Below, piece by piece: positions 21,938-30,722 of a stretch of DNA of 33,457 nucleotides. A model generated the notes under the pieces. The model was given only the letters and a program-made list of their open reading frames with translations, did no database searches and was not told the DNA's origin. The position numbers were made by a program, and so were the translations under genes. Origin of the DNA: Streptomyces globisporus (GTDB lineage Bacteria; Actinomycetota; Actinomycetes; Streptomycetales; Streptomycetaceae); NCBI GenBank assembly GCA_014649555.1, contig BMTG01000029.1, positions 1-33,457 on the forward strand. Direction: 5' to 3'. Position 1 is the first letter of the stretch. The number at the start of each line of letters is the position of its first letter.

Positions 21938-24103
21938 GTGGCCACCAACACCGCCACCCGCCGCAAGCGCCAGCCCGCGGCGAACGCGAAGTCCCGCAAG
22001 GGGCGCGCCAAGGCACCGGCGACACCGGTCTCCATTCCCGCCCAGGCCGCCGCTCCCGAGGAGACGGTGCCGCTGGTCTTCCTGGAGGCCGACCCGGTCC
22101 TGGCCGACGCCGCCGACCGCGCCGCCGACCTCCGGGACCAGGCCGACGCCGACGTCGTGCGGATCCTCGCCGACGGCGAGGCCCGTGCCAACGAACTGCT
22201 GGAGGATGCCCGCACTGAGGCCGCCTCGATCACCGAGGCGGCCACCACGGAGCAGTCCCGCCTCCTAGCCGCCGCCGCCACGGACGCCGACCGGGTCCGC
22301 ACGGAGGCCGCCACCACGGCGGCTGCCGACGCCGACCAGGTCCGCGCCGCCGCCGAGACCGAGGCGGAGCAGCTGCTCGTCGACGCGCGCCGCCAGGCCG
22401 GCACCGTCACGGCGACAGCGGCCAATGAGGCGGAGAAGGTCCTCGCCGACGCCAAGGTGACGGTCGAGGAGCTGCTCGCCGACGCGCGCCGCCAGGCGCA
22501 GGAGGTCACCACCACGGCGGCCGCGCACGCCGACGAGGTCCGCACCGAGGCCGCGCAGGCCGCCGCGAAGACCCTCTCCGACGCGGAGACGCAGCGCACC
22601 GAGCTGCTGGCCGGTGCGGAGCGCACGGCGGTGGAGACACGCACCCGGGCCACCACCGACGCCGAACAGGTGCTGGAGCGGGCACGGAGCGAGGCCGACC
22701 GGGTGCGCGAGAGCGCGGACGGCCAGGCCGCGCAGGTACGGGCCGGAGCCGAGAAGGTCGCCGCCGGCCTTCGCTCCGACGCCGACCGCGCCCTGGACGA
22801 CGCCCGCACCTCCGCTGAGGAGCTGCGGACGGCGGCCGACAAGGACGCCGCCCGGCTGCGCGAGCAGGCCGAAGCCGACGCGCAGTTGGCCCGGGAAGCG
22901 GCGGCGCAGGCCACGGCCGACCAGGCCGCCGCCGCTCAGGCTCGCGCCGAAGCGGACCGGATCCTTGAGGCGGCGACGCAGCGCACCGTGCAGCGGGCGC
23001 GGCGCCGGGAGATCCGGACCGAGTCGCGCACAGCCCGGCGCAAGGCCCGCGACGAAGCCCGGCCCGCCGGCGGGGTGCCGCCGCTATCCGGGCAGGAGTT
23101 GGTGCTGGTCGTCGGGATCGTCCTGGCGGCCGCGGTCGTCTCCACCCTCGGGCTGCTCTCCTCCTACACCGCGCTGGAGACCAAGGCAGCGACGTGGGGC
23201 TGGGACTGGCCGTGGCTGCTCCCCGTCGGCATCGACGTCGCGATCCCCGCGTTCACCGGAGCCAACCTCATCCTCATCCGGATGGGCATGGAGCTCCGCT
23301 GGATCCGCTGGGTGCCCCGGGTGCTGACGGCGGTGACGGTCTACCTGAACTGGCAGGCGTCCTCCACCCCCGGAGGCCGTATCGGGCACGCCGCCCTCAC
23401 ACTGCTCTGGGTGATCTTTTCCGAGATCGCCTCGCACGTGTACGGCACCCGGATCGGCGCGGTCACCGGCAAGAAGCGCATGGAGACAGTGCGCCGCTCC
23501 CGCTGGATCCTCGCCCCGATCCCGACAGCCCGCCTTCGCCGCCGGATGATCCTGTGGGAGATCACCTCCTACCAGCAGGCGCTCACCCGCCTCCAGGAGG
23601 AGACCTACACGCGAGCGCAGCTCAAGGAAGACTTCGGGCTGCTGTGGCGCTGGAAGGCCCCGCTGGACAAGCGGATGGCGCTCAAGCTCGGCTCCGCGCC
23701 CGCCGCGCTCGCTGACACGCTCACCCCCGAGGACACGCTCACCGTCGAACGGGTGGAGGAGAGCGAGCACGCTCGCCCGGACATGAGCGCGCTCACCGAT
23801 GAGGCGACGCGCGGCGAGCGCGAGCGCCCGGCGCTCACCACCGGCGCTCACGAAGGTGAGCGCCCCACGGACGATGACGACGCTCACCGAGCGGACGGCG
23901 CGCTCACGCGCAGCGAGAGCGACGCGCTCACCGAGCGCCGCCACGCTCGCATCCGTCTCCTCTACACCGAGCTCGGGCGCCGTCCCGAGTGGAAGGAGAT
24001 TCGCGACGCGCTCACCGACGCGAAGCTGTCCGACAGTCCGGTCTCCCGCCCGACCGCCCAGCGCCTGCGCGCTCAGGTCGAAGAGGCCACCCCGGGCGCG
24101 TAG
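21938..24103 (+). CDS. Long coiled coil fused to a DUF2637 membrane domain
   Basis: GTG 21938 follows GAGAGAGG. In the 721-residue protein residues about 50-350 are an Ala/Glu/Arg-rich coiled coil with hendecad character; LL-x-DARRQA recurs 33 residues apart, mirrored by a 99-bp DNA repeat (22372 and 22471). A basic hinge follows (RRREIRTESRTARRKARDEA). The DUF2637 domain has four membrane segments (about 386-408, 427-445, 455-475 and 483-502, ending LLWVIFSEIASHVYG). The C-terminal third has ALT-rich low complexity and a helical RIRLLYTELGRRPEWKEI motif. DUF2637 proteins occur in actinomycete plasmids and AICEs next to transfer ATPases. A septum- or membrane-positioned scaffold for conjugation is inference. 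Its 3' end carries the GCTCAC cluster. Confidence 0.8.
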   Translation: MATNTATRRKRQPAANAKSRKGRAKAPATPVSIPAQAAAPEETVPLVFLEADPVLADAADRAADLRDQADADVVRILADGEARANELLEDARTEAASITEAATTEQSRLLAAAATDADRVRTEAATTAAADADQVRAAAETEAEQLLVDARRQAGTVTATAANEAEKVLADAKVTVEELLADARRQAQEVTTTAAAHADEVRTEAAQAAAKTLSDAETQRTELLAGAERTAVETRTRATTDAEQVLERARSEADRVRESADGQAAQVRAGAEKVAAGLRSDADRALDDARTSAEELRTAADKDAARLREQAEADAQLAREAAAQATADQAAAAQARAEADRILEAATQRTVQRARRREIRTESRTARRKARDEARPAGGVPPLSGQELVLVVGIVLAAAVVSTLGLLSSYTALETKAATWGWDWPWLLPVGIDVAIPAFTGANLILIRMGMELRWIRWVPRVLTAVTVYLNWQASSTPGGRIGHAALTLLWVIFSEIASHVYGTRIGAVTGKKRMETVRRSRWILAPIPTARLRRRMILWEITSYQQALTRLQEETYTRAQLKEDFGLLWRWKAPLDKRMALKLGSAPAALADTLTPEDTLTVERVEESEHARPDMSALTDEATRGERERPALTTGAHEGERPTDDDDAHRADGALTRSESDALTERRHARIRLLYTELGRRPEWKEIRDALTDAKLSDSPVSRPTAQRLRAQVEEATPGA

Positions 24104-24197
24104 GTGAGCGCCCGGTGAGCGCGAGGCGCTCACCGCCTGACGCTCACGCTCGCCACCGGCCCGCGCTCGGGGTGCGAGCGCGGGCCGGTGTGTGAGC
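23719..24197. repeat. Cluster of 15 GCTCAC/GTGAGC motifs (candidate transfer locus)
   Basis: GCTCAC occurs at 23719, 23737, 23791, 23833, 23846, 23882, 23902, 23926, 24010, 24128 and 24142. GTGAGC occurs at 23856, 24104, 24115 and 24192. Many copies read GCGCTCACC. Elsewhere I see roughly one per one to two kb. The first ten lie in the coding region with mostly the same orientation, where they force ALT tripeptides; the last five lie beyond or at the stop. TraB-type plasmid ATPases bind short repeated octamers at clt loci, so this is a candidate recognition region. Confidence 0.6.
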
Positions 24198-24209
24198 GCG
24201 AGCGTCAGG
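24138..24209 (+). repeat. Nested hairpin with a perfect 14-bp stem
   Basis: ACCGGCCCGCGCTC (24155-24168) pairs perfectly with GAGCGCGGGCCGGT (24176-24189) around a 7-nt loop. Outside it CTGACGCTC (from 24138) mirrors GAGCGTCAG (near 24200-24208). It follows the DUF2637 stop by about 35 bp, so it may be a terminator. It is also embedded in the motif cluster. Confidence 0.6.
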
Positions 24210-24258
24210 CCGCTCGCCCGCCCCTCCCCGAGCTCGACTGAGTTGAGAGGAACTCGAC

Positions 24259-24420
24259 ATGAGCGATCTTCAGTACGCGATCGGCGTGATCCTCGTCCTG
24301 ATCACCCTCGCCATGATCCTGGCCACGCCGTTCCTGCTGGTCCACTCCCGCAGCCTGTACGACCACGGCCCCACCTGCTGGTGGTGCCACCCCCGCCTGC
24401 TGCCGCGCAAGCGGCGCTGA
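24259..24420 (+). CDS. 53-residue membrane peptide with CWWC motif
   Basis: ATG 24259 has GAGAGG nine bases upstream. The product has one hydrophobic span YAIGVILVLITLAMILATPF followed by a short region with PTCWWCHP and a basic end (RLLPRKRR). A single-pass membrane protein with a CxxC pair facing one side is predicted. Similar tiny Spd-like membrane proteins accompany transfer genes in streptomycete plasmids; the CxxC resembles the Cys-rich neighbours. Function is unknown. Confidence 0.6.
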   Translation: MSDLQYAIGVILVLITLAMILATPFLLVHSRSLYDHGPTCWWCHPRLLPRKRR

Positions 24421-24558
24421 CCTGCTGGCCATGGTCGCCACCGGCCCCGCTCACACCCGAGCGCGGACCGGTGACGGCCACGGCCGGCAGGCCGCTCGCC
24501 CGCGCCGCGCCCCGAGCGCGGACACAGCGGGCCAGGCACCACCCGCCCCGCGTCAGAC

Positions 24559-24621
24559 CGCATCCGTCTCCCCCGCACCGAGTTCGGGCGCCACCCCGAG
24601 CAGCCGGAGACCCACGACGCG
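24559..24621 (+). pseudogene. Decayed copy of the DUF2637 gene 3' end
   Basis: This 63-bp stretch matches 23948-24010 (the coding region for RIRLLYTELGRRPEWKEIRDA) at 50 of 63 positions without a gap, giving RIRLPRTEFGRHPEQPETHD in the equivalent frame. Flanks on either side show weaker similarity. No start codon or usable frame remains, and the gap 24421-24703 otherwise contains no gene. It looks like a leftover of a duplicated or second related gene. Confidence 0.5.
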
Positions 24622-24635
24622 GTTCAGGCGCACGA

Positions 24636-24670
24636 AGGCCCCCCGCTGAAGCGTGATCAGCGGGGGGCCT
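24636..24670 (+). terminator. Hairpin terminator
   Basis: AGGCCCCCCGCTG (24636-24648) pairs perfectly with CAGCGGGGGGCCT (24658-24670) around a 9-nt loop; CGGTCTTCTG follows. It precedes the ribosome site of the next gene by about 20 bp. Confidence 0.7.
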
Positions 24671-24703
24671 CGGTCTTCTGCTCACGCAAGAAAGGAGCAC
24701 AGC

Positions 24704-25219
24704 ATGGCACCCGCGACGACCGGGCCGGCCCCGAAGTCCGGGAGCTTCACCCGTACGACGACCCCGCCGGCGCCCGCGCTGGCACCCCCCACGGTGATCC
24801 CACCGGCCCTGGAGATCTGGGCGCCCGACCCCCCGACCTGGAGCCAGCGCATGATCCCCAAGGGGATCCGGTCCGCGATGGCTGACCTGGGGCTTTGGCA
24901 GGAGCCGCGCCCCTTGAAGCCCTCGTTCCACCTGGTCCAGGTGATCGAAGTCCTCACCCGCTACGGCTGGTGCCAGAGCTTCGATTTCTCCCCCACCGGA
25001 CGTATGTGCATCAGGGGTGCCCAGACCTTTCTGGAATCCACCGGGCACGTCACCACGATCGACCGGCGCAAGGCCGTGAATTACCTCCAGTCCCAGTTGG
25101 TCCGCCAGGGCGTGAACATGCGGTTCTGGGAGTGGAACGACCTTTCCAGCAACACCTTCCGGGGTGTGGAGGCCACCATTTCGGCGGCCTCTGACATGGC
25201 GCGTAAGAACGGAGACTGA
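24704..25219 (+). CDS. DUF6197-like protein (171 aa)
   Basis: ATG 24704 follows AAAGGAG. An Ala/Pro-rich first 45 residues lead into a small domain with LVQVIEVLTRYGWCQSFDFS, then GRMCIRGAQTFL and WEWNDLSSNTFRGVEATISA. The pattern (helix-GW, G-x-x-C-x-x-GA, then WND-x-x-x-x-T) recalls the DUF6197 family found in streptomycetes. The family has no known activity that I recall. The gene is directly upstream of the membrane/coiled-coil gene and downstream of a terminator, so it may start a new transcript. Confidence 0.6.
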   Translation: MAPATTGPAPKSGSFTRTTTPPAPALAPPTVIPPALEIWAPDPPTWSQRMIPKGIRSAMADLGLWQEPRPLKPSFHLVQVIEVLTRYGWCQSFDFSPTGRMCIRGAQTFLESTGHVTTIDRRKAVNYLQSQLVRQGVNMRFWEWNDLSSNTFRGVEATISAASDMARKNGD

Positions 25220-25220
25220 A

Positions 25221-25853
25221 ATGACACCGGACGAAGAGAGGGAATTCGAAGGAATTCAGGCCGGAATGACGGCCGGAATGACCTTCGGGAACAGCACTCC
25301 GGACGCTTCCCCGTACGCCGACGAAGGGCCTTACGGAACCCCGGTCGTGCACAAGAAGGCCGGTCTGACCCGCCGTGGAAAGGTTGCCATCGCGGTGGCC
25401 GGAGTGGCGATCGTCGGCGGCGGAACCATCTGGTTCCAGGTCCATTCGGCGGCCGTCGCGAAGGACGAGAAGGAGGCCGCCGCTCTCCAGATCCAGATGA
25501 AAAAGCTGGAACTGGAGGAAATCAGGATTCGGAACGAGCAGGCGCGCACCGACAAGAAGGCCGCGAGCGCTTCCGCAGAGAAGATCCAGGCGGCCGTCGA
25601 CAAGTGCGTGAAGGACTCCTCCGGCCTGATCGGCAAGGGGTTCGGCTCGCCCTCCAGGGGCGAGGTCGTGGCGGACTGCAAGCAGCAGTACGAGACCGCC
25701 GACGGGTCCGGCATGCAGGCCGCCGGCAACGTCCAGGACGCCAGCAACACGGGCGGCGGCGGGATCAACTCCCCCGCCCTGCTGGGGCTCGTCGCCGGTG
25801 GCGGCCTGGCCGTCGCGCTGTTCGCACGCAAGGGCAAGAAGGCTGACGCCTAG
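25221..25853 (+). CDS. Two-span membrane protein with central coiled coil (210 aa)
   Basis: ATG 25221 starts one base after the previous stop, with GGAG upstream. After an acidic start, residues 55-72 form a first hydrophobic span (VAIAVAGVAIVGGGTIWF), then a charged coiled coil (EKEAAALQIQMKKLELEEIR and onward, to about 130). A C-terminal hydrophobic segment LLGLVAGGGLAVALFA with a basic tail RKGKK ends the protein. Two Cys residues (KCVKD, DCKQQ) lie in the loop before it and may form a disulfide if exported. A membrane-spanning bridge in a transfer apparatus is conceivable. Confidence 0.65.
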   Translation: MTPDEEREFEGIQAGMTAGMTFGNSTPDASPYADEGPYGTPVVHKKAGLTRRGKVAIAVAGVAIVGGGTIWFQVHSAAVAKDEKEAAALQIQMKKLELEEIRIRNEQARTDKKAASASAEKIQAAVDKCVKDSSGLIGKGFGSPSRGEVVADCKQQYETADGSGMQAAGNVQDASNTGGGGINSPALLGLVAGGGLAVALFARKGKKADA

Positions 25854-25952: not shown

Positions 25953-25992
25953 GGAGTAAGGAACCATCTTGATCACGGAGAGTGAGGAAACC

Positions 25993-27879
25993 ATGGCGAC
26001 CGATACGGCGCCCCCGGTCCCCGCGGGGCCCCCCGATCCGCCCGCTGCGCCGGCCGCCCCCGCCGCGTCGGCGCCCACCGGAGACACCGGCATCATGGCC
26101 GCCCTGATGGCTGCGGTGGAGCCCGCCCGGCCGGTCACCGCGACTGCCGGGGCCAGGCCGGAGGGCGACGACCCGGCCGCGAAGGCGGACCCCGACGGAG
26201 TGGTGGACCGCTCCTCCCCGGGCGTCACCAGCGAGCAGTTCAAGGCCCCGGAGGATTTGACCGGGGCCGGATCCGATGCCGCCGGTGCCAAGCACAAGGA
26301 AGGCGTTTTCAAAACGCTGATCCGGGCGGGCGCGACCCGCTGGGCAAAAGGCGGCGGGACCGCGAACAAGCGGCTGGACCTGGAGAAAGCCAGGGCCGGT
26401 GCGCACCAGGTGAAAGAGGCCCGGACCACCACGGTCATGAAGTCGCCTGGACTTCCCACCCGAAACGGCTCCGGAGGGTCCGGTGGAGGGGGCCGTAATT
26501 CCGGCGGAAACAGCGGCGGAAATTCAGGCCGTAATTCCACCGGTACCGGCTCCACGGGTACCGGACGTGGCGGAAGCGGCGGCACCACCGGAGGCGGCGG
26601 GCGCGGCTCGTCCGGCTCGAATGGGAACGGCGGATCCGGCAGCGGGCGCGGCACCAGCACAAACGGTGGCGGAAGTTCGCCGAAGGACACCGGCCCCAAG
26701 GGGCCGAAAGACTCCGCAGGAAAGGGGAAGGACGGCTCCTCGGGGAACGCGGGATCCGGTGGAAAGGCTGGCAAGGACGGAAAGGCCGGTGTCTTCGGAA
26801 ACGGCGGCGGATCGACATCGGGCGGCTCGTCCGGCGGTAATTCCGGCACCTCGAAGGACAAGGCCGACAAGGACAAGGGCTCGAAGGCCGACCTGACGAA
26901 GGGCGGCGGTGGCCAGGGCTCGGGCGGCTCCTCCGGGAGCAGCGGTGGATCCGGGAAGAACGGCGGCTCCTCCGGGGGCAGCGGGTCCGGAAAGAGCGGC
27001 TCCTCCGGGAGCGGCGGCGGATCCGGTTCGAGCGGCTCCTCCGGCAAGAACGGCGGGTCCGGCAAGAACGGCGGCTCCGGGAACAGCTCGAACGGGACCA
27101 ACGACCGGACCCCGCTCCAGCGTTCGCGGGAGACGGGGCACGGCGACGGCTCCGCGGTCCGCAACGCGGTCGACCACGTGAAGGCGTACGCGCAGGGGAC
27201 CAAGGACGGCTACCAGGACAAGAAGGAGGAGAACGGCAAGGAGCACGCCCGCCTGGACAAGGCGCACGCCGACCACAAGGCGAAGCAGCAGGACCCGAAG
27301 AAGGGCGACCCGAAGCAGCAGGGAACGGCGGTCACCGGGCCCAGCGGCCAGACGATCGTCATCGCCCCGCCGGAGAACGGAGACGACGGAGTGAGCACGG
27401 ACGTGAAGCCCCTCCTGGTCAAGGAGATCGACGCGAACACGCTGACCCTGGGCACGGACGGTGCCCGGGGGTCGGTCAGCCGCAAGGAACTCCGCAACTT
27501 CAAGCAGTACGAACGCAAGCTGGAGGCCAAGGAGAACCACCTGATCAAGGTGGCCGACGCGTGCAAGTCGCTCCAGGCCGCAGCCGAGGACGAGGCCAAG
27601 GACTGCCAGGAGCTGGCCGACCAGGCCAAGGCCGTCGAAGGCGGCGAGAAGTTGGCCGCGAAGCTGACGCGGCTGGCCGACGCGGCGAAGGCCCAGGCGA
27701 CGGAGGCCGCCGAACTCCACAAGCGCGCGAAGCGGGCGGCGGAGATGTGCAAGGTCGTCATGACCAACATCGGCACCCGGTATGCGCCGCTGTATAAGGC
27801 CGTCGTCGACAGCGACGAGACGAAGCCGGCCGAACTGCGCTTCTACAACGACAAGGGCTCCTACGCGCCTGCCGCGTAG
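25993..27879 (+). CDS. Large low-complexity Gly/Ser-rich protein with helical C-terminus
   Basis: ATG 25993 (the frame also opens at TTG 25969) gives 628 residues. The N-terminus is Pro/Ala-rich; residues about 156-372 are a Gly/Ser/Asn-rich low-complexity tract with repeated G-S-S-G and GGSGKNGGS units; residues about 476-600 are charged helices (ESADACKSLQAAAEDEAKDC-like, then AKLTRLADAAKAQATEAA) that resemble the 126-residue protein just downstream. The C-terminus ends in a short strand region. The long flexible linker and helical end suggest a spacer or scaffold in the transfer apparatus. A secreted substrate is an alternative. I know no homologue. Confidence 0.6.
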   Translation: MATDTAPPVPAGPPDPPAAPAAPAASAPTGDTGIMAALMAAVEPARPVTATAGARPEGDDPAAKADPDGVVDRSSPGVTSEQFKAPEDLTGAGSDAAGAKHKEGVFKTLIRAGATRWAKGGGTANKRLDLEKARAGAHQVKEARTTTVMKSPGLPTRNGSGGSGGGGRNSGGNSGGNSGRNSTGTGSTGTGRGGSGGTTGGGGRGSSGSNGNGGSGSGRGTSTNGGGSSPKDTGPKGPKDSAGKGKDGSSGNAGSGGKAGKDGKAGVFGNGGGSTSGGSSGGNSGTSKDKADKDKGSKADLTKGGGGQGSGGSSGSSGGSGKNGGSSGGSGSGKSGSSGSGGGSGSSGSSGKNGGSGKNGGSGNSSNGTNDRTPLQRSRETGHGDGSAVRNAVDHVKAYAQGTKDGYQDKKEENGKEHARLDKAHADHKAKQQDPKKGDPKQQGTAVTGPSGQTIVIAPPENGDDGVSTDVKPLLVKEIDANTLTLGTDGARGSVSRKELRNFKQYERKLEAKENHLIKVADACKSLQAAAEDEAKDCQELADQAKAVEGGEKLAAKLTRLADAAKAQATEAAELHKRAKRAAEMCKVVMTNIGTRYAPLYKAVVDSDETKPAELRFYNDKGSYAPAA

Positions 27880-27900: not shown

Positions 27901-28281
27901 ATGGCGGAACTGACGTACAAGGTCCTCGTCCGCAAGACGCAGGAGAAGGAGAAGGCGCTGGCCCGCAACGCGGAGGGCGTCAAGAAGGCCGCGGAGAACA
28001 TCAAGGAGCTGGCCGACGACACCGCCTCCGACGCGGACGCGCTGGGCGCCAAGAGCGTGGACCGCGACTCCCTGGCGGAGTGCCAGGAGCTGTCGAAAAT
28101 CATCCGCGGCGTGTCGGAGGGCGCGATCACCTACGCCTCGAAGACGGCCGACACCGCGAAGGCCGCGAAGGCGGCCGGAGACCAGGCCCGCACCACCCAC
28201 GCCGGGTTCCAGGAGGCGTTCGACCGCTCCGACGTGACGGACCTGGAGAAGGTCAGCCGCGACTGGTTCGAGCAGGAATAG
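27901..28281 (+). CDS. Small helical protein (126 aa)
   Basis: ATG 27901 follows AGGAGG. Almost the whole length is predicted helix: LTYKVLVRKTQEKEKALARN, then KKAAENIKELADDTASDADA and AITYASKTADTAKAAKAAGD. It shares composition and layout with the C-terminal helices of the preceding protein (both have a C-QEL motif), so the two may be related modules. Size and helical hairpin form recall WXG100-type proteins, but no WXG motif is present. It is directly upstream of the FtsK/TraB-type ATPase. Confidence 0.65.
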   Translation: MAELTYKVLVRKTQEKEKALARNAEGVKKAAENIKELADDTASDADALGAKSVDRDSLAECQELSKIIRGVSEGAITYASKTADTAKAAKAAGDQARTTHAGFQEAFDRSDVTDLEKVSRDWFEQE

Positions 28282-28388: not shown

Positions 28389-30722
28389 ATGTCCACCATC
28401 ACCAAGACCGTGCCGAACGCGGAGCCTGCGGAGCGAGCCACCGCGGCGCTCCAGATCGTCCTCCCCGTCGGGGTGGGCATCCTGGCCCCCTACCTGGACC
28501 CGAACGCGGCGGCCTACGCCGGGGCCGGCTTCATCGCCGGTGCGACGTTCGCCGGCGCCAACTACATGAACCGCCTTGGTCGCTGGGCGAACCAGCTCCC
28601 CGGAATCGACATCGCGCGGGCGCACCGCGACACCATGGGGATCTCCACGATCACCACCGGCATGGGCTTGGCCCTGGGCCAGCTGGGCGGAGCCGAGGCA
28701 TCCGAAGCGCTGATGGCCGGTGTATTCGAGCCGACCACCGTTCCGGGGATCCTGTCGCTGGGCTGGTGGGCCGCGGTCGTCTTCACCGGCTGGCGTCTGC
28801 GCCGCGTCTTCGGCAGGCAGAAGATCGAGGTGGAGCAGGCGCAGCCGACCGGGCAGGCCGCCCTCGCCAACACCGGCACCCCAGCCCCGGTGTCCCTGGC
28901 CGACAAGATGATCGCGGCCTGGGGGCGTGTGATCAGCGATCCGAAGAACGGCCGCCACCGCAACCAGGTCCTCTCCGACGTCGTGATCTACGCGGACCGC
29001 TGGGAGGGACGGGTCACCGCCGCCCTGGGCGACTCCGTGAACGTGTCGAAGGAGGCCGTCTCCAGCCTCTTCGGCCGCTCGGTCGACGACATCACCCTGA
29101 AGTACGGGGCGCACTCCGGGGAAGCGTTCATCACCGTCTGGTACACCCAGCGCCCGGAGCTGGACCCCTCCACCCTCCAGGGCGCCTGGAAGCGCGTCCA
29201 GGCGCGGGTCCTGCCCAAGACCCACCTGGAAGAGGTCGGCGAGGACGTGAACACCGGCGGCCAGGTGGCGCGCGTCGTGGCCGACGACGACCTGGACGCA
29301 CTCCCCCGCGTCGTCAACCTCGGGGAGCTGGCCGGAGCGCTGCGCCGCTCCATCGACCTCGTCTCCTACGAGCCGGGACGCCGCGACCCGCGCCGCGCGA
29401 TCATCCGCATCATGGACCACAACCCGCTGGAGGCAGGCCACGAATTCCAGGGCCTGGACTCCCTGGTGGCCACGCCGGGCGGCTGGGTCAACATCGGGAA
29501 GATCGTCTCCGGGTTCCCGGCGAAGCTCCAGCTGTTCGACCCGAAGCTGGGCGCCCTGCACGTCGTGATCGCCGGTACCACCGGCTCAGGCAAGGGCGGC
29601 ACGGGCCAGATGATCAGCCTGGCCTACCACGCCAACAAGATGGCGCAGATCTACGGCGACCCCAAGGGCGCCAGCAACCCCGCGATCCCGAAGATGGCCG
29701 CCTACAGCGGCCTGACGAAGTACGGCGCCCTGGGCGCCATGCGGCTGTCCTGGTGGGTCCTCCAGCACCGGATCGACGAGGCCGCCCGCCTGGACCTGAA
29801 GAACTTCGAGCCGTCCGCGATGCGGCCGTACTGCGCCACGATCCTCGACGAGGCCGCCCAGATGCTGGCGCCGGGAGCGGAGAACCGCAAGGAGGCCATC
29901 AAGATCGTCAAGGATGGTGCCTCGCTGACCCGCTCCATGGGCATGCCCTGGGTCCTGATCAACCAGACCGTCAACTTGGACCAGCTGGGCGGCGAGCAGG
30001 CCATCCGCGCCAACCTCATCGCGGGCGGGACCTGGATCATCCTGCGCACCGACAGCGACCAGGTGAACCTGGGCGACCTGCCCCCCGGCTTCGACGGGCT
30101 GGACCCCTCGCTGATCCCGCCGGTGTGGGTAGAGGAGGACGACGCGCTGGTCTACGACCCGACCATGGCGGAGTCGGACCCGCGCCGCACCTTCGGCCTC
30201 GGCTACGTCGCGGCACCGGGCGGGCGCGCGGGCATGATGCGCATCGACACCCTGGAAGACGCCACCGAGCACATCCGGCCGGAGAACATCATGGCCCCGG
30301 TCGACGTCCCCTGGTGGGGCGACCAGGCGCACATGGAGGAGCTGGCCCAGACGCCCATCCCCGGCTTCGAAGAGAAGGACAGTGAGGGCGGAACCGGCGA
30401 GGCCGGGACCTCATTCCCCGGCGTCGACCTCCCGAAGGCCAAGGAGCTCACCTCGGAGGAGAAGGTCCTGGCCGCCCTCCGTGACGAGTCCGACCCCATG
30501 TACGTGGACATGGTCGACCAGGGCGACGAGATCGACCCCGAGGACATCGACTACGTGGAGCGGGGACAACTCCAGGCCGCCTGCGGGGTCGCGGAGTCGA
30601 CCTTCGCGAACGTGCTCAACAAGCTGGAGAAGAAGGGGCAGATCCACCGCGTCAAGGACGGGAAGTCCTCGAAGGTGGCCCTGGGCAAGCGGCCAGAAGA
30701 AGACGCCGAAGAAGCCGCCTGA
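28389..30722 (+). CDS. FtsK/TraB-type DNA translocase (conjugative transfer)
   Basis: In this 777-residue protein the N-terminal part (about 20-135) has two or three membrane segments, then a soluble region. The ATPase core has Walker A GTTGSGKGG at 396-404 and Walker B ATILDEAAQ with D487-E488. The Lys of Walker A is followed by Gly, not Ser/Thr, as in TraG/VirD4-type coupling proteins. Residues 715-760 form a C-terminal winged helix (LQAACGVAESTFANVLNKLE, KKGQIHRVKDG), the position of the DNA-binding gamma domain in FtsK and TraB. In streptomycetes one such hexameric ATPase at the hyphal tip moves double-stranded plasmid DNA between cells. This is the likely transfer protein; the GCTCAC cluster is a candidate target. 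Confidence 0.85.
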   Translation: MSTITKTVPNAEPAERATAALQIVLPVGVGILAPYLDPNAAAYAGAGFIAGATFAGANYMNRLGRWANQLPGIDIARAHRDTMGISTITTGMGLALGQLGGAEASEALMAGVFEPTTVPGILSLGWWAAVVFTGWRLRRVFGRQKIEVEQAQPTGQAALANTGTPAPVSLADKMIAAWGRVISDPKNGRHRNQVLSDVVIYADRWEGRVTAALGDSVNVSKEAVSSLFGRSVDDITLKYGAHSGEAFITVWYTQRPELDPSTLQGAWKRVQARVLPKTHLEEVGEDVNTGGQVARVVADDDLDALPRVVNLGELAGALRRSIDLVSYEPGRRDPRRAIIRIMDHNPLEAGHEFQGLDSLVATPGGWVNIGKIVSGFPAKLQLFDPKLGALHVVIAGTTGSGKGGTGQMISLAYHANKMAQIYGDPKGASNPAIPKMAAYSGLTKYGALGAMRLSWWVLQHRIDEAARLDLKNFEPSAMRPYCATILDEAAQMLAPGAENRKEAIKIVKDGASLTRSMGMPWVLINQTVNLDQLGGEQAIRANLIAGGTWIILRTDSDQVNLGDLPPGFDGLDPSLIPPVWVEEDDALVYDPTMAESDPRRTFGLGYVAAPGGRAGMMRIDTLEDATEHIRPENIMAPVDVPWWGDQAHMEELAQTPIPGFEEKDSEGGTGEAGTSFPGVDLPKAKELTSEEKVLAALRDESDPMYVDMVDQGDEIDPEDIDYVERGQLQAACGVAESTFANVLNKLEKKGQIHRVKDGKSSKVALGKRPEEDAEEAA

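Follow-up and report, generated by a model that had tools for sequence, protein, structure and literature searches.

Why does a gene for a predicted membrane protein end in a dense cluster of one short DNA word that runs on past its stop codon, and which protein would read that word? The question is raised by a DUF2637 gene of Streptomyces globisporus on contig BMTG01000029.1 (assembly GCA_014649555.1), of which positions 1 to 33,457 were analyzed (hereafter the window) and whose nearest relatives are linear Streptomyces plasmids. The gene (21938..24103, plus strand) encodes 721 residues from this start, the start codon being uncertain, and matches PF10935 (E 7.1e-11; 42.7 bits, above the Pfam gathering cut-off of 22.8). 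Its product comprises an N-terminal coiled coil, a membrane domain (23120..23575, plus strand; residues 395-546 in the Pfam match), a linker, and a C-terminal helix-turn-helix (HTH).

A word array across the end of the gene

The initial annotation described fifteen GCTCAC/GTGAGC motifs at 23719-24197, ten in the DUF2637 gene and five in or past its stop, against about one per one to two kilobases (kb) elsewhere. Listing of the sites bears this out: that interval holds exactly 15, of which 10 precede the stop codon (24101-24103) and 5 follow it, and the remaining 22 sites in the window amount to about 0.67 per kb. GCTCAC is unusual by its clustering rather than by its total count in the window, where 37 sites in 33,457 bp compare with a shuffle mean of 30.4 and indicate no window-wide enrichment. 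The sharper word is CGCTCAC, which has 21 copies in the window, 15 of them within 521 bp (23700-24220) and six in the rest; the 15 in the array compare with four in the 31.7 kb outside 23001-24720. Likewise, eight of the nine copies of GCGCTCACC in the window fall within 23700-24220. The 15 words form an array at 23718..24198, on both strands, with the consensus gGCGCTCACCc, and a further copy, the 16th, stands at 23580 and recurs in close relatives. The copies had further been proposed to force ALT tripeptides in the protein. This holds for seven of the ten coding copies, which lie in the ALT/TLT register, and fails for the two in another frame and the one on the opposite strand.

The density had been taken as peculiar to this locus, and counts over the genome and a related plasmid agree, with no comparable second cluster in either; abundance of the word genome-wide was rejected on the same counts. 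In the 8.25-Mb genome, CGCTCAC-N4-30-CGCTCAC matches 19 places (seven in the array and 12 scattered singles) and an inverted CGCTCAC pair matches seven distinct places (two in the array), and these searches for direct and inverted word pairs found no second array. The related linear plasmid, NBC_01213, was read over 100 of its 102 kb. It carries a homologous array with 14 CGCTCAC, in a counterpart gene that is annotated DUF2637 and is 85% identical in its N part and 98% in its C part. More than 1.5 kb from that array, no 500-bp window in the 100 kb exceeds two CGCTCAC.

Comparison of related elements establishes that CGCTCAC is selected as DNA, as had been argued from the copies that cross the stop codon. 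The test covered 24 rows (23 distinct elements) that share the C-terminus type of the window, termed HTH1, with 300 synonymous shuffles of the last 510 coding nucleotides of each. These stretches hold 5-15 CGCTCAC per row, the shuffles average 0.5-1.3, and the observed count lies above the maximum of the 300 shuffles in 24/24 rows. Over the 24 rows, duplicate included, sites on both strands occupy four of the six registers (106, 85, 47, and 17 sites), and with four registers in use they code different peptides. The 250 nucleotides after the stop contain at least one copy in every row, with a mean of 3.2 against a background expectation of 0.054. When the rows are aligned, their 8-20 sites each fall at 41 site positions, none of which is filled in all rows and the commonest in 23/24; by this comparison, site positions are gained and lost while the array is kept. 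All 19 full-length close relatives of the DUF2637 gene carry the array, with 7-17 copies.

For the HTH1 elements, the synonymous shuffles reject a peptide or codon by-product. For the window array, the idea that it merely follows from codon bias and a low-complexity linker peptide is next to untenable. Most of the coding array does lie in the linker-coding stretch (23687..23899, plus strand, from AlphaFold2), whose product is predicted to be disordered (pLDDT about 30 over residues 201-271 of the folded segment, in a poor model with a mean of 49.7 that is suggestive only), and the arrays of two other C-terminus types, HTH3 and HTH8, are almost single-register. Nevertheless, every one of the 23 distinct HTH1 elements beats all of its shuffles, with four registers in use and copies past the stop, and the arrays of a further type, HTH2, occupy all six registers in 9/10 loci.

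The last five copies lie in an inverted-repeat region (24103..24210, both strands; RNA fold and self match). Folded as RNA, 24100-24230 reaches -110.4 kcal/mol (z -10.3) with array words in the stems, and 24135-24210 matches itself on the minus strand. With an inverted repeat of this strength, the region past the stop may double as a hairpin or terminator, and its five copies may have a second role; the coding part of the array stands without them.

Which protein the word follows

The initial annotation had assigned the reading of the array to the winged-helix-like C-terminal end of an FtsK/TraB-like ATPase encoded downstream (28389..30722, plus strand). Since the same ATPase was seen beside other arrays, a wider set of elements was collected. 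The ATPase matched 98 plasmid records, of which 17 were fetched, NBC_01213 included. Of 20 genome regions, 14 entered the set; three (L067, L074, L079) break off short of the membrane gene, two (L081, L082) match only in part and lack the cassette, and no membrane gene was obtained for L083. The collection comprises 52 elements, 51 of them distinct (L069 is the same as L021), linear plasmids and circular phage-plasmids included. A clear array is present in 44/51 distinct elements, at roughly 8-45 copies per element across array types; it is weak in L117 and L121 and absent from five (L076, L077, L080, L118, L120).

The membrane-protein C-termini and their words were labeled HTH1 to HTH8, names that are our own, with a folded model for HTH1 only. 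The word is CGCTCAC for HTH1 (23 distinct elements, window included), CGGTCCG/GGTCCGGA for HTH2 (10 elements), AGCCGAAGC for HTH3 (three), CGTCACG, CCGTCACG for HTH4 (two, L032 and L086), GGTTCGC for HTH5 (one, L033), CCGTACCGGT for HTH6 (one), CGGCTCA for HTH7 (three), and CGTGAAC for HTH8 (one).

Covariation was tested on 1035 pairs of 46 distinct elements with a comparable ATPase, excluding five elements in which tblastn found no ATPase. The compared ends were the last 90 residues of the membrane protein and the last 110 of the ATPase, with lengths and thresholds of our choosing; 73/1035 pairs in the middle identity ranges were left out of the four pair classes. Pairs with membrane C-termini at least 50% identical share the word both when the ATPase C-termini are alike (75 pairs, median word cosine 0.929) and when these are less than 40% identical (121 pairs, median 0.862). 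Where the membrane C-termini are less than 35% identical, the word is unshared in 160 pairs with ATPase C-termini at least 70% identical (median 0.043, maximum 0.146), and the median is 0.062 in the 606 pairs whose ATPase C-termini are also unlike. The partial correlation of word with membrane C-terminus, given the ATPase C-terminus, is 0.957, and the reverse is -0.071; with the duplicate L069 included, 0/2000 permutations reached the observed value for the membrane C-terminus and 1646/2000 for the ATPase. Restriction to the 39 array-bearing elements gives 0.969 and -0.098. The word also correlates with the membrane segment (r 0.933; partial 0.427 given the C-terminus) because segment and C-terminus are usually inherited together. 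In the 16 pairs with a like membrane segment and an unlike C-terminus, the median word cosine is 0.047. As far as these comparisons reach, the word is tied to the C-terminal part of the membrane gene and not to the ATPase.

Individual elements illustrate this pattern. L028 and L033 form a natural domain swap, in which the proteins share 64% identity over about 740 residues but are unrelated from there on, and the words across the swap are CGGTCCG and GGTTCGC, respectively. The membrane proteins of L032 and L086 are 45% identical; both elements carry CGTCACG, with 3/16 site positions in common, beside ATPases that are respectively 91% and 29% identical to that of the window. In addition, CGCTCAC is retained in 19/19 close DUF2637 relatives, whose ATPases, encoded about 4-6 kb downstream of the DUF2637 gene in each case, fall into three very divergent types: six of the window type (90-96% identity), eight about 30% identical over 221-486 amino acids, and five of a distantly related type (phmmer E 5e-10 to the L018 ATPase). 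No winged helix was matched in the three members of this last type that were scanned with Pfam.

These results speak against the assignment to the ATPase. The idea of a clt locus bound by the winged helix at the ATPase C-terminus is modeled on pSVH1, whose TraB reads 8-bp repeats via a winged helix, and on pWTY27, whose TraA binds its clt (PMC3583192, in part), and the cassette here is similar in kind. Yet near-identical ATPase C-termini occur with several words and one word occurs beside very divergent ATPases, so that covariation, as a comparison only, rejects this reader and leaves the reading very improbable. A host factor is also unlikely, we infer, because the words differ between elements of one genus. 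The C-terminal HTH of the DUF2637 protein itself is a better candidate reader than the ATPase. This DNA-binding-like domain (23900..24094, plus strand) is predicted as three helices by AlphaFold2 (mean pLDDT 88, from 19 close sequences), and 37 columns are invariant in the 19 sequences, PVSRPTAQRLR included. The best fold matches listed are mostly HTH or winged-helix domains, all weak, and no PDB sequence match was found for the domain. Matches in PHROGs are to families of unknown function only.

A putative docking address

The array is probably the self-encoded docking address of a membrane-anchored protein, SpdB-like and active in transfer or spreading, that reads it through its own HTH. The DUF2637 gene would thus code a membrane-anchored protein and, mostly in its linker-coding DNA, 15-16 copies of the word of that HTH. 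Through many weak sites, the protein would dock the plasmid to the membrane in double-stranded form, beside the FtsK/TraB-like translocase encoded 4 kb downstream, and the plasmid would thereby be chosen for conjugal transfer or for spreading within the mycelium. The HTH binding, the docking at the membrane, and any part in transfer or spreading are our inferences. In the relatives compared, the array gene is constantly placed upstream of the ATPase cassette; the cassette, together with reports on Spd and TraB proteins (PMC4170104, PMC12857230, and PMC3583192, each in part), is what suggests a transfer role. It is further possible, at somewhat less than even confidence, that a modular address system is common to the linear plasmids and phage-plasmids of Streptomyces, in which a membrane transfer protein has its own address, an array of roughly 8-45 copies, in its linker-coding DNA, and in which HTH and array are exchanged as a unit while the translocase is kept.

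Several points weigh against the docking address. Array and candidate reader are physically linked on the DNA, so the covariation ties the word to a 3' module and is not proof of binding by the domain. The element pairs are related, and the independent units number about eight types. The nearly single-register HTH3 and HTH8 arrays may be peptide-driven. Several array-bearing membrane proteins are of other types and are not DUF2637 by Pfam, their membrane nature being judged by eye; among six other membrane proteins (L028, L032, L033, L035, L036, L117), only L035 passes for DUF2637. Finally, other DUF2637 genes were considered as array carriers and rejected: the 30 best Pfam-scoring loci have no comparable arrays, scoring at most 27 against 55 for the array, on a scale where array-free pieces of NBC_01213 reach 41.

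Of the known systems, the clt (TRS) of TraB in pSVH1 and TraA in pWTY27 likewise consists of clustered short repeats in or next to a tra gene and goes with an FtsK-like translocase, and in pWTY27 16 bp of the clt lie inside traA (PMC3583192, sections). A short repeated word in a transfer-type cassette, resembling a cis-acting recognition array, is a part of the initial annotation that is supported. The array here differs in lying mostly inside the membrane-protein gene and in varying independently of the ATPase C-terminus. On the covariation evidence, it appears to work like a clt and yet not to be one read by TraB.

The Spd proteins offer further parallels. SpdA2 of pIJ101 is a DNA-binding plasmid protein with its site, sps, inside its own gene (PMC4170104, in excerpts). 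However, SpdA2 is small and affects stability, and its site, the 12-bp palindrome CGTCACGTGACG, has 1-3 copies; the window array consists of 15-16 copies of a 7-9 bp word and belongs to a large membrane protein, and across elements there are several exchangeable words. The HTH4 word CGTCACG is part of the palindrome (pIJ101, L124, at 8140 and 8173), perhaps by chance; the palindrome itself is also absent from L032 and L086. Like the DUF2637 protein with its traB-like cassette, SpdB and SpdB2 are membrane proteins encoded in the traB region, and SpdB2 of pSVH1 binds DNA non-specifically and contacts TraB (PMC4170104, in excerpts). The end of pIJ101 SpdB resembles HTH4 (blastp E 6.8e-4 against L086, 0.006 against L032; the window protein is absent from the eight matches listed), which hints that the array-bearing proteins are SpdB-like. 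This SpdB has no Pfam or NCBIfam match, and pIJ101 differs in carrying no comparable array, only a pair of isolated CGTCACG besides its two sps palindromes.

In SCP1, too, a reader's gene contains its site, with parS1 lying inside parB1 (PMC13245405, in part), although the present array consists of many short words and has no ParA partner or ParB-type family match. A centromere-like array, with the DUF2637 HTH holding or distributing the plasmid in hyphae, is a rather unlikely reading, though some observations favor it. Centromeric repeat arrays that are bound statically have been reported from several partition types, and in intramycelial movement Spd1 of SLP2 is reportedly redundant with ParABS (PMC13245405, in part). 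The coiled coil resembles the polarity proteins Scy and DivIVA, at scores far below cut-offs, and the DUF2637 gene is kept while cassettes vary: of the 459 window frames of at least 40 amino acids, those present in all 19 relatives (at least 50% identity over at least 30 amino acids; flanks up to 10 kb, less in three relatives) overlap the DUF2637 locus at 21.5-24.3 kb. On the other hand, a separate ParA/ParB pair lies about 24 kb from the array in NBC_01213, pSCL2 and the NBC 01658 plasmid likewise carry ParA/ParB, and the array gene stands upstream of the ATPase cassette at 19/19 loci. Among the 20 window proteins scanned with Pfam, none matches ParA or ParB.

The position of the array between the DUF2637 gene and the cassette genes, together with weaker clusters near the start of some other DUF2637 genes, could instead suggest an operator array, through which the protein, bound all along the 3' end of the gene and the start of the cassette, would repress or sense its own operon. 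About 500 bp of mostly coding sites, and roughly 8-45 copies across types, are far above the need of an operator, and this reading is improbable. Iterons occur inside rep genes of linear plasmids. Replication iterons, as in the rep genes of some Streptomyces plasmids, are nonetheless a very unlikely identity for the array: iteron origins typically have repeats beside a rep gene (PMC3583192, in part), but the NBC_01213 array is 74% GC with the eight lowest-GC stretches all elsewhere, the extremes of cumulative GC skew also lie elsewhere, the candidate reader is a membrane protein, and the module type sits on linear plasmids as well as circular phage-plasmids. No rep family was found among ten proteins scanned around the array, several of which match no family.

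The cassette, other clusters, and significance

Downstream of the DUF2637 gene, all on the plus strand, lie a small open reading frame of 53 amino acids with a hydrophobic N-terminus (24259..24420; 98% counterpart in NBC_01213) and the cassette genes. The latter encode a DUF6197 protein (24653..25219; Pfam E 2.8e-14), a protein of membrane and coiled-coil type by eye without a family (25164..25853), a Gly/Ser-rich protein with a helical C-terminus by eye, also without a family (25969..27879), and a 126-residue protein with no family above cut-off (27901..28281). The ATPase that follows has weak family scores: NCBIfam plasmid_TraB E 0.002, far below cut-off, and MarR E 0.027 and FtsK_SpoIIIE E 0.095, both below cut-off. 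Its relatives are partly annotated as DNA translocase FtsK or type IV secretory transfer protein, and a search for a related solved structure gave no meaningful PDB match. The ATPase cassette is also present on seven circular plasmids of 86-93 kb (L035, L036, L117-L120, L122); these regions contain a terminase gene in 7/7 and a major capsid gene in 4/7, which marks them as phage-plasmids with a conjugation-type cassette.

DUF2637 is found in 392/392 Streptomyces genomes sampled. Seven further regions were inspected, six of which (AICE-like, our label) have DUF2637-type genes with at most weak CGAAACG clusters. In L125, L127, L129, and L130, weaker CGAAACG/GTTTCGG clusters stand at the 5' end of DUF2637-type genes and not at the 3' end. 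CGCTAGC/GCTAGCGA clusters occur in L126 (own genome C4) at about 2294-2460 and in L127 at about 691; that of L126 lies just beyond the 3' end of an 873-residue protein with a weak TraB score and resembles the classical clt position. NZ_CP108543.1 (L026/L027) has ACATGTC eight times and AGGAGCA 12 times within 400 bp, in 3.4-kb pieces from 13.6 kb and 61.2 kb. Titles and abstracts on Spd, clt, iterons, and phage-plasmids contained no similar system; subscription literature was mostly outside this scope, and novelty is not claimed.

If the docking address is true, it would explain how double-stranded DNA transfer systems with interchangeable FtsK-like motors select their own plasmid, and specificity would shift from the motor, as in the TraB/clt view, to a membrane adaptor. 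If the address is also modular, one nucleotide sequence would serve both as protein code and as a specificity tag that sets which replicon each transfer machine moves. The analysis yields eight predicted pairings, each of a C-terminal domain with its word. For DUF2637, a family of unknown function, it offers a possible DNA function and a candidate ligand.

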